A stretch of 64,000 bases of DNA from Bacteroidota bacterium (GTDB taxonomy: Bacteria; Bacteroidota; Bacteroidia; Chitinophagales; Chitinophagaceae). Where the stretch lies: assembly GCA_005884665.1 (NCBI GenBank), contig VBAT01000038.1, positions 29,253 to 93,252 on the forward strand, in the 5' to 3' direction. How positions within the stretch are numbered: the first letter of the stretch is position 1; the number at the start of each line of letters is the position of its first letter. The notes beneath the pieces were generated by a model. That model was not told the DNA's origin. It saw only the letters and a list, made by a program, of their open reading frames with translations, and searched no databases. Of the stretch, positions 32,706-36,218 are shown piece by piece. Made by a program: the position numbers and the translations under genes.

Positions 32706-35700
32706 TTAGGCTTTTTTTGAAACAATCACTTTTAGCGAAACATCGTTAATATCGATCCCGAATTCGCCCGGGACCGCTGTTCCATTGGGTAGTTCCGAAA
32801 CTATTTCAAGCTTATCAGCGAGAATTTCGGCGCAAATATAGTCTTTAAACTGAGCCAAAGAATTTTTCATTCCATTGGCAGCAACTACTTTTACTTCTAT
32901 TCTGTCTGTGAGATCAAATCCCTGATCCTTACGTATTTTCTGTATCCGGTTGACGAATTCCCGGGCATTGCCTTCAGCCTCAAGATCTGGTGTCACAGTG
33001 ATGTCCAGTGCCACGGTCAGATTGCCTTTGCTGGCTACAGTCCAGCCTGGAATATCCTCACTGCTTATCTCTACTTCGCTAACCTGTAATATTACGGGTT
33101 CGCCATCAATTGACAAATTATATTGACCTTCTTTTTCCAGCCTTGCGATATCGTCCTGCGTAAATTGTGCTAAAACAGCTGAGACCGCTTTCATTTTAGC
33201 GCCCAGTTTTTTTCCCAATGCGACGAAATTCGGCTTTATCTTTTTGCTGATAAAGGTATTGTCCGGGTTGAGATACTCAATTTCCTTAACATTCACTTCA
33301 GCCTTAACCAGATCCTCCACTTTTTTCAACTGTTCCTTCATTGAAGGGTTCAAAACGGGTATCAACACCTTTTGCAGCGGTTGCCTTACTTTAATATTCA
33401 TTTTCTTGCGAAGAGATAATATCAAAGAAGAAGCATCCTGGGCCAGCTGCATTCTTTCTTCCAGCGAACTGTCAATTGCCGATTCATCTGCTACAGGAAA
33501 ATCTACATGATGTATTGACTCTGCTTTGAAGCGACCGGTTATCGCTTCAAGGTTTTGGAAAACGGCATCACTGAAAAATGGCGAGATGGGAGCTATCAAC
33601 CGTACAACCGTTTCCAGGCATTCATACAATGTCTGGTAAGCGCAGATCTTGTCCTGCTCATACTCACCTTTCCAGAATCTCCGCCTGCATAATCTAACAT
33701 ACCAGTTGCTTAAATGTTCATCCACGAAGTCCTCAACCAGGCGACCGGCTTGTGTGGGTTCATAATCATCCATATATTCAGAAACCTCCTTCACCAACGT
33801 GTTAAGTGAAGAAAGTATCCACCTGTCAATCTCAGGTCTTTCCTGAAGAGGGATATATTTTTCTTTGAAAGCAAACCCATCGACGTTGGCGTATAGGGCA
33901 AAAAACTGGTAAGTATTATATAATGTACCAAAGAACTTTCTTTGTACCTCTTTGATGCCGTCAAGATCAAATTTCATATTGTCCCAGGGCGATGCATTGG
34001 TGACCAGGTACCATCTTGTGGCATCCGCACCAAAGCTCTCGATCGTTTTGAAAGGATCTACGACATTCCCGAGACGCTTACTCATCTTATTACCATTCTT
34101 ATCCAATACCAGGCCGTTTGACACGCAGGTCTTATAGGCCACCCCGGCCCCCAATGGGCGGGTTTTGGATACCCATTCCGGAATATCCTTCATTACTTCA
34201 TTAAGACTTTCCTGTATCATGCAACTAATAGCATGAAGAGTATAGAACCAGCCTCTTGTTTGGTCTACTCCTTCGGCAATAAAATCAGCTGGATAATTTT
34301 CAGCAAATACTTTTTTGTTTTCGAAAGGGAAATGCCATTGGGCATACGGCATAGCACCGGAATCAAACCATACATCGATCAGGTCGGGAACACGGCGCAT
34401 CAATTTTCCTGATTTGCTAAGTAATACGATATCATCAACAAAAGGCTTGTGAAGATCAATATCCTCTCTTTGTAGATAGTTATAAGAGTCATATATCTCC
34501 CCCTGTTCTTCAGATGTTAACCATCCGCCTACGGTATTTTTCAACTGTAGCATTTCAGCAGAATATAAAGAAGCCGTCTTTAACTCCTCAATAGACCCAA
34601 TACACAGCTCTTCCTGGCCATCCTCTGTTTTCCAGATAGGTAAAGGAGTTCCCCAGAAACGACTACGGCTCAGGTTCCAGTCTACCATATTCTCGAGCCA
34701 GTTGCCGAATCTTCCTTCACCGGTTGATTTCGGTTTCCAGTTGATGGTTTTATTCAATTCAACCATCCTGTCCTTCATCGCAGTTGTCTTAATAAACCAG
34801 GCATCCAGTGGGTAATACAAGATCGGTTTATCGGTGCGCCAGCAATGCGGATAGCTATGCTCATATTTTTCTACTTTGAAAGCCCGGTTCTCTTTTTTCA
34901 ATTTAACAGCTATATCCACATTGACGTCGGCATATTTCGGATCGTCTTTGTAATTCTTGACGTAACGGTTGCTGAATTCGCCCAGTCCATCTACAAACTT
35001 TCCCTGCTTGTCAACCATTGTTAATATTCCGATATCATATTTCTTACCGACCCGGTAGTCGTCTGCACCGAAAGCCGGAGCCGTATGGACAATACCGGTA
35101 CCGTCTTCAGTTGTGACGAAATCACCCAGGAGAATTTTAAAAGCATTGGGGTTATCCGTTCGGTTGGCTTCAAAAGGAAGCAATTGCTCGTATGAAATTC
35201 CTTCCAGTTCCTTTCCCTTGAACTCTGCCAGAATTTTCCATGGAAGAATTTTTGCTTTTTCGTTGTACCCATCAAAATCTCCATTCTCTCCTTCCGGTTT
35301 GAAATACTTAGATAGTAATGCTTTTGCGAGAATGACATTTGTCGGGTTATGCAAGTAAGGGTTAAATGTTTTCACCAGAACATAGTCAATGTTCGGCCCG
35401 ACAGTTAGCCCCAGGTTAGAAGGCAAAGTCCATGGAGTAGTCGTCCATGCCAGGAAGAAAAATCCGGCCTCCCTGCCCTCCAAAGGAGGGTTCTGGCTAT
35501 CCTCTATCAGGGCGAATATCCTATTTAGAGTTGGGTTTTCATACTCCCCTCCCTCGGAGAGGCTGGGGGAGGCCTTGAACATTGCTACAGCAGATGTATC
35601 CTTCACATCTTTGTACGTGCCTGGCTGGTTCAATTCATGCGAGCTTAATCCAGTTCCTGCCGCCGGCGAATAAGGCTGGATGCTCACGCTTTCATAAAGC

Positions 35701-36218
35701 AACCCTTTTTTATACAGTTCACTGAGGAGCCACCAAAGCGTTTCGATGTATTCGTTCTTGAAAGTGATATAAGGATTATTCAGGTCGACCCAATATCCCA
35801 TCTTGCGGGTAATATCATCCCATTTGTCCTTGTACCGAAGTACAGCCTCACGGCATTTGGCATTATACTCTTCTACTGATATTTTTTTTCCAATGTCTTC
35901 CTTTGTGATCCCCAATTCCTTTTCTACACCAAGTTCAATAGGCAGTCCATGGGTGTCCCAACCGCCTTTTCTTTTAACCTGGAAGCCTTTCATTGTCTTG
36001 TAGCGACAAACAAGGTCCTTTAATGTGCGGGAAATGACATGATGAATGCCAGGCATACCATTGGCGCTGGGCGGTCCTTCGTAGAACACAAAGGGAGTTG
36101 CGCCTTCACGCAAGGACACACTTTTTTCAAAAGCTTGGCTATCAGCCCATTTGGCCAATATTTCCTGCTCGATCGCCGGTAAATTCAAACCTGAAAATTC
36201 CTTGTACCTGGATGCCAT
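32706..36218 (-). CDS. ileS: Isoleucyl-tRNA synthetase
   Basis: 1170 residues from ATG 36218 (MASRYKEFSGLNL). The class I HIGH-type motif is GMPGIHHV, the Bacteroidota variant. KMSKR is present as NKMSKRLGN, and LAWTTTPWTLPSN marks the start of the CP1 editing domain. Just before that motif, residues about 215-251, lies an odd stretch (SPSLSEGGE ... NPPLEGREA) that corresponds to an inverted-repeat DNA element at 35466-35574. The upstream frame extension (36219-36305) overlaps a palindromic repeat and is rejected. The gene is followed directly by the DksA-like gene. Confidence 0.95.
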   Translation of the reverse strand: MASRYKEFSGLNLPAIEQEILAKWADSQAFEKSVSLREGATPFVFYEGPPSANGMPGIHHVISRTLKDLVCRYKTMKGFQVKRKGGWDTHGLPIELGVEKELGITKEDIGKKISVEEYNAKCREAVLRYKDKWDDITRKMGYWVDLNNPYITFKNEYIETLWWLLSELYKKGLLYESVSIQPYSPAAGTGLSSHELNQPGTYKDVKDTSAVAMFKASPSLSEGGEYENPTLNRIFALIEDSQNPPLEGREAGFFFLAWTTTPWTLPSNLGLTVGPNIDYVLVKTFNPYLHNPTNVILAKALLSKYFKPEGENGDFDGYNEKAKILPWKILAEFKGKELEGISYEQLLPFEANRTDNPNAFKILLGDFVTTEDGTGIVHTAPAFGADDYRVGKKYDIGILTMVDKQGKFVDGLGEFSNRYVKNYKDDPKYADVNVDIAVKLKKENRAFKVEKYEHSYPHCWRTDKPILYYPLDAWFIKTTAMKDRMVELNKTINWKPKSTGEGRFGNWLENMVDWNLSRSRFWGTPLPIWKTEDGQEELCIGSIEELKTASLYSAEMLQLKNTVGGWLTSEEQGEIYDSYNYLQREDIDLHKPFVDDIVLLSKSGKLMRRVPDLIDVWFDSGAMPYAQWHFPFENKKVFAENYPADFIAEGVDQTRGWFYTLHAISCMIQESLNEVMKDIPEWVSKTRPLGAGVAYKTCVSNGLVLDKNGNKMSKRLGNVVDPFKTIESFGADATRWYLVTNASPWDNMKFDLDGIKEVQRKFFGTLYNTYQFFALYANVDGFAFKEKYIPLQERPEIDRWILSSLNTLVKEVSEYMDDYEPTQAGRLVEDFVDEHLSNWYVRLCRRRFWKGEYEQDKICAYQTLYECLETVVRLIAPISPFFSDAVFQNLEAITGRFKAESIHHVDFPVADESAIDSSLEERMQLAQDASSLILSLRKKMNIKVRQPLQKVLIPVLNPSMKEQLKKVEDLVKAEVNVKEIEYLNPDNTFISKKIKPNFVALGKKLGAKMKAVSAVLAQFTQDDIARLEKEGQYNLSIDGEPVILQVSEVEISSEDIPGWTVASKGNLTVALDITVTPDLEAEGNAREFVNRIQKIRKDQGFDLTDRIEVKVVAANGMKNSLAQFKDYICAEILADKLEIVSELPNGTAVPGEFGIDINDVSLKVIVSKKA
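35466..35574. repeat. Inverted-repeat element inserted in frame within ileS
   Basis: The ends GGCCTCCC (35466-35473) and GGGAGGCC (35567-35574) are perfect inverted repeats 109 bp apart. A second palindrome, CCCTCC-AAA-GGAGGG, lies at 35476-35490, and a related imperfect one (CCTCCCTCGGAGAGG) near the other end. Both palindromes read through in the ileS frame. The encoded stretch is Pro/Ser/Glu/Gly-rich and unlike a synthetase. Confidence 0.65.

Follow-up and report, generated by a model that had tools for sequence, protein, structure and literature searches.

Palindromic units read in frame in a Chitinophagaceae ileS gene resemble the ends of candidate selfish DUF559 endonuclease elements

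Two palindromic units read in frame within the isoleucyl-tRNA synthetase gene (ileS) of the analysed DNA (the window, a stretch of 64,000 nucleotides) are probably end units of selfish in-frame DUF559 elements of Bacteroidota. The first-pass annotation of this DNA had missed a larger in-frame element with a DUF559 endonuclease, the ends of which these repeats match. The features of the gene are the following:

32706–36218, minus strand: ileS, isoleucine--tRNA ligase, the host gene, with the ATG of MASRYKEF as start
35538–35574, minus strand: upstream unit GGCCTCCCCCAGCCTCTCCGAGGGAGGGGAGTATGAA, read as ..ASPSLSEGGEYE; 43.0 bits with the covariance model, a score by construction since both ileS units belong to the training set
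35466–35499, plus strand: downstream unit, inverted, with minus-strand reading DSQNPPLEGREA; 39.6 bits with the same model, likewise by construction
35500–35537, minus strand: inter-unit segment, contained in ENPTLNRIFALIEDSQ, in all likelihood the helix of the native loop

The ileS ORF (1199 codons) matched Pfam tRNA-synt_1 (5.6e-116), Anticodon_1 and DUF5915, and its product matched PDB structures of IleRS; the palindromes are read in frame in this essential gene. The two units lie in inverted orientation, both in frame, at 35466–35574. The perfect 8-bp inverted ends already reported there were found as described, GGCCTCCC at 35466–35473 and GGGAGGCC at 35567–35574 (109 bp end to end), each adjoined by a second palindrome (35477–35490 and approximately 35547–35560). 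Taken alone, the 8-bp ends are weak evidence, and it is the palindrome that lifts the observation above chance; GGCCTCCC occurs three times in the window vs 1.29 expected, and at least three times in 12 of 100 shuffles. BLAST of the 131-bp ileS stretch against its own genome retrieved itself as the sole strong match, the remaining nine being 14–28 bp long (E 0.05–7.9). The downstream unit has 30 bp identical in the ileS of G001, a genome of the same genus, and its peptide NPPLEGREA recurs in genome G018, where it terminates a DUF559 element located at a CinA-type site.

Alignment of 50 IleRS loci showed the units only in the window and in G001, in accordance with the lineage-specific insert previously proposed. 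From LSSHELNQ to the editing motif there are 66 (window) and 70 (G001) residues, vs 47 in the uninserted same-genus loci shown, with one exception at 54; the distance from FKA to VFFLAW is 36 residues in the window, 40 in G001 and 17 in uninserted genes of the type of G003 (same genus). Measured against the most common related length, the window's IleRS has a net 19 residues more. In a second set of 80 loci from named genomes, mostly Chitinophagaceae, with best segments at most 78% identical, one IleRS carried both units as in the window (L202), one the upstream unit alone (L182) and one a different palindrome on the downstream side (L225); the two sets overlap in genomes, and 3 of the 130 loci were unreadable at the site. 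The ileS loop is a landing place that has been used repeatedly. Since the segment between the units resembles the native loop, as read in L182 (ENPGISKIFSAAKGEDVFFL) and in the uninserted G003 (INNERSKFLFDAAKSGEVFFL), we read two units around host sequence, and the occurrence of one unit alone in L182 further disfavours a single 109-bp insert. The earlier proposal that a dispersed repeat has colonised ileS was therefore borne out as to the dispersal (at least 48 units in 38 places) and not as to a single 109-bp element, the latter being probably two units flanking the native loop. Elsewhere in the IleRS of G006 (L060), inserts of about 28 and 47 residues without obvious palindrome were also observed.

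In a structure model of the IleRS (32 sequences; pLDDT 74, pTM 0.64), the segment between the units corresponds to a predicted helix at residues 229–240, and the added residues of the units are modelled, with moderate to low confidence, as linkers between the strands 205–216 and 254–259, in agreement with the surface-loop placement suggested before. One could suppose that a native variable loop of IleRS simply drifted to GC-rich palindromes with no mobile DNA involved, and indeed loop length differs in many genomes, where unrelated inserts occur; but the same unit is found in tens of unrelated places, and alone or paired in the same ileS loop of other genomes. The dispersed copies refute such drift, to which we assign practically no probability. 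No DUF559 domain was found at the ileS site among the 127 readable IleRS loci of the two overlapping sets, so that it is the ends alone that point to a DUF559 parent at this place.

The unit follows approximately the consensus GGCCTCCCC-AA-CCCCTCC-AAA-GGAGGGG-CTTTRGAA, with a variant GGCCCCCCC-A-CCCCCC. The palindrome CCTCYNNRGGAGGG gave 18 matches in 16 places of the 5.7-Mb assembly and its reversed control none. A covariance model built from 20 units, both ileS units among them, returned at least 49 matches at E<=1 in the same genome, a lower bound because 150 of 1497 candidates were scored; C68:22223-22257 (-), overlapping another match, was set aside, and the remaining set of at least 48 units falls into 38 places. 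This count too is a lower bound, since the model missed a further copy at an ORF start, namely the repeat-like SENPPSGGGGT opening an aminotransferase-like ORF (L128, approximately 1–860; C104:148401-149258). Distant IleRS with homologous residues of the same length and sequence were not encountered and the genome does hold other copies of the palindromes, so neither of the contrary outcomes named in the first-pass annotation occurred. At 22 of the 38 places, units are read in frame within ORFs of 150 aa or more, assigned by Pfam or NCBIfam to IleRS, LeuRS, MetRS (three places), two UvrA-like proteins, MiaB, RlmD, RsmF, RibD, an MgsA-type ATPase, an IcmF-like mutase, DUF6298, GH43, three histidine kinases and, N-terminally, a NuoB-like protein, besides three ORFs without family. 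Three of the other 16 places have an in-frame unit near the start of IlvB, prephenate dehydratase and PaaB, the rest being between ORFs or at ORF ends, with one weak match within a 142-aa ORF. By inspection of the ORF maps, no out-of-frame disruption of a gene by a unit was seen. A search of a phage collection gave no match.

An unusual freedom from stops was not supported for the units, which have on average 4.65 of six frames open vs 4.53 in shuffles (all six in 5 of 20 units). Yet the number of frames in use is small: of 31 units in long ORFs, 13 are read in one sense frame, 16 in two antisense registers and 2 otherwise. Three adjacent histidine kinase genes (L113, C8:33000-40000) carry one unit each at the same place of the HATPase domain, as if copied along with the gene. 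It might be argued that the units act as DNA or RNA, for instance as terminators or protein-binding sites, and that the genic copies are accidental, as the 16 places outside ORFs of 150 aa, mostly between ORFs or at their ends, could suggest. Against this, more than half of the places are inside ORFs, many of them for conserved enzymes, and presence at one site differs between sister species; we regard a DNA- or RNA-level role as extremely unlikely.

The larger form of the element was found in the MetRS of the window's own genome. There, a unit, a DUF559 domain (PF04480, 1.2e-31) and an inverted unit follow each other in a single frame with the host, adding 155 residues beyond the empty form between TRDLDWG and VLYVWFDAP. 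This is the one full element bounded by model units in the genome, which has four DUF559 matches in all; a second MetRS was not found in the assembly (94% complete). The same site, readable in 10 of 15 MetRS loci, is empty in seven (G001, G002, G005 and G006 of the same genus, G009, G037 and G040), carries a lone unit in G003 and a short remnant in G004, and is full in the window's genome. Comparable states were observed at the second LeuRS site, which is empty in L359, L362, L377 and L379, has a lone unit in the window's genome and in G003 and a full element in L177, L178, L349 and L273, and at the IcmF site, with a lone unit in the window's genome and the full element in six loci. In two LeuRS genes (L177 and L349, of G019 and G147), both LeuRS sites are occupied by DUF559 elements. 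The LeuRS editing-domain site of G001 (L357), where other genomes have full DUF559 elements, is 28 residues over the commonest empty form, possibly an old remnant.

DUF559 matches were present in 18 of 34 relatives, 91 of 195 genomes of the family and 222 of 392 genomes of the phylum. Among the matches listed, the domain was in ORFs of at least 250 aa in 65 of 150 for the family, and in long ORFs in 52 of 150 for the phylum; for Y1_Tnp (RAYT transposase) in the 34 relatives, 3 of 88 were in ORFs of at least 250 aa. The loci fetched gave 107 distinct DUF559 domains, of which 75 were in ORFs of 250 aa or more and the other 32 in shorter ORFs, which is no natural proportion because loci were chosen partly for an embedded domain. 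Named on the basis of flanking motifs, the sites are LeuRS editing domain (21), LeuRS second site (8), AroC (7), IcmF (6), CinA (5), MetH (5), MetRS (3), the ArgB N-terminus (3), adenine-deaminase-like (2) and others (15). Family scans on some of these loci agreed with the motif names for LeuRS, AroC, CinA, MetH, IcmF and MetRS, while ArgB and adenine deaminase are presumed hosts named from their motifs. Outside the family, again by motif, the LeuRS editing site recurs and MetH is used at another site. Some DUF559 copies stand alone, part of them without ends.

In the embedded DUF559 ORFs the frame is open through the insert. No intein (Hint/splicing) family was listed in Pfam for 11 of them, and none was found for six more in NCBIfam at 1e-20, a threshold that could miss one. 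The MetRS DUF559 domain matched the structures 3hrl (endonuclease-like, 2.8e-21) and, weakly, 3r3p ('Mobile intron protein', 0.0067), which we take to be I-Bth0305I. The putative catalytic columns E, D, E, D and H are kept in 73–74 of 74 embedded domains, L180 being omitted. Synonymous change is saturated in most nuclease pairs, so that only dN (0.09–0.26) and not dN/dS is usable.

The ends and the nuclease were also linked statistically. At the laxest of three thresholds, a hairpin was present on both flanks of 39 of 73 embedded family domains vs 2 of 68 blocks 500 bp away, of 10 of 31 family domains in shorter ORFs vs 0 of 31 far blocks, and of 12 of 18 embedded phylum domains vs 1 of 17 far blocks; counted against the link, a hairpin is missing from at least one flank in 34 of the 73, about half thus being without a clear pair. 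Matching inverted ends were found in 38 of 72 embedded domains, vs 0 of 67 for far blocks and 4 of 72 when ends were matched with another locus. Matching direct ends were found in 15 of 72, as expected since the unit cores are palindromic. Inverted orientation as a rule for the whole phylum was unsupported, 29 phylum loci giving 14 direct and 10 inverted matches. Nuclease and end sequences co-vary across 60 loci (r 0.61; 0.54 for pairs at different sites), with none of 2000 permutations as high. In the nuclease tree (104 of 107 domains; 40 of 101 forks unresolved) the sites cluster but switch, with 29 changes against a minimum of 10 and a shuffled mean of 66.8. Common descent could account for both the co-variation and the clustering of sites. 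Searched in 30 DUF559 loci, the repeat model R1 gave 23 matches at E<=1 and seven at E<0.01, six of these flanking the domain; the units beside DUF559 at E<0.01 belong to G001, G004, G018 and the window's genome. Five R1 matches were found in 23 LeuRS loci, four of them in G003, where LeuRS has lone units.

These data bear on a rival in which the palindromes were moved by an unknown agent, as with the Rickettsia palindromic elements (RPEs), and DUF559 landed among them by chance. In its favour are the 48 units of the window's genome vs a single full model-bounded element and four DUF559 matches, together with the share of DUF559 in long ORFs, which among the matches listed is about one third for the phylum and less than half for the family. 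Nevertheless, many genomes have the nuclease flanked by matching ends, and at shared host sites; nuclease and end sequences co-vary, and unit and DUF559 counts in seven genomes of the genus run from 40/4, 37/5, 32/4, 16/5 and 12/5 down to 6/0 and 0/0. On balance, a chance landing appears unlikely.

The units could instead be REP/REPIN repeats of the ordinary kind, mobilised by a RAYT (Y1) transposase, given that inverted hairpin pairs resemble REPINs and that the genome has one strong Y1_Tnp gene. However, R1 had no match in 23 Y1_Tnp loci, 22 of the 38 places are within ORFs, and the genome's own RAYT gene is surrounded by different palindromes, copies of TTGCCCC..GGGGCAA and GTCCCAGAGGGAC (L079, C55:54976-58320; approximately 660–1290 and 2100–2630). 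With two inverted and five direct end matches at 19 RAYT loci (250-bp flanks), a RAYT mover is unsupported, and we hold this origin to be very unlikely.

We prefer the reading of selfish DUF559 elements. In a complete element, two palindromic ends, usually inverted in this bacterial family, enclose a DUF559 (Vsr/EDxHD-like) endonuclease domain with a spacer on either side, all of it in a single open frame that continues that of the host gene. The nuclease would cut either a new site or the host gene's allele that lacks the element, and repair would copy the element in, by homing or transposition. Only arrivals in frame and in tolerant loops would survive, so that host and nuclease would persist as one polypeptide with no intron or intein. 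If the nuclease were then lost, or if the ends alone moved, what remained would be palindromes, one or two, translated as short linkers rich in Pro and Gly. The ileS pair may represent the last stage of this process, the decay to lone ends; such decay would run from full element to lone repeat, and the insert would be tolerated in vivo.

As commonly understood, homing nucleases inside genes spare the host by means of an intron or intein. DUF559 appears here simply as an additional domain encoded within genes for LeuRS, MetRS and other enzymes. A repeat family is linked in this way to DUF559, whose function is unknown; a new element class, if true, would supply a mover of in-frame palindromes that can be put to the test, and Pro/Gly-rich inserts in housekeeping proteins would be explained. 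Among open-access titles and starts of abstracts retrieved by text search, none links DUF559 with palindromes or in-frame insertion. We are inclined to see here, with some reserve, a new class of selfish element: a homing-type endonuclease that is not spliced, has palindromic ends, resides in frame as a domain of essential enzymes throughout Bacteroidota, and gives off lone palindromes by which host proteins become longer.

Among known systems, the nearest in behaviour are the RPEs, which according to a review (PMC10969869) are of about 150 bp and integrated 44 times in genes of R. conorii. The units described here are likened to them by behaviour, being in-frame palindromic repeats inside unrelated genes, but unlike them occur either singly, at about 35 bp per unit, or in pairs, and have a larger DUF559 form. 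With the RAYT-associated REP/REPIN sequences, which according to the title of PMC3733652 bear a GTAG or CGTC tag at one end, they share short GC-rich hairpins, often in inverted pairs, whereas they are mostly intragenic and away from RAYT genes. Homing endonucleases of introns and inteins, such as I-Bth0305I, have in common with the DUF559 elements a related nuclease fold, conserved host genes and recurring sites; in contrast, the elements have no intein domain listed, a frame open through the insert and palindromic ends. Finally, the lone units match the ends of DUF559 elements, the autonomy of which is putative. They resemble MITEs as copies of a bigger element's ends that lack the nuclease, but here every end is a hairpin in its own right and is found singly.
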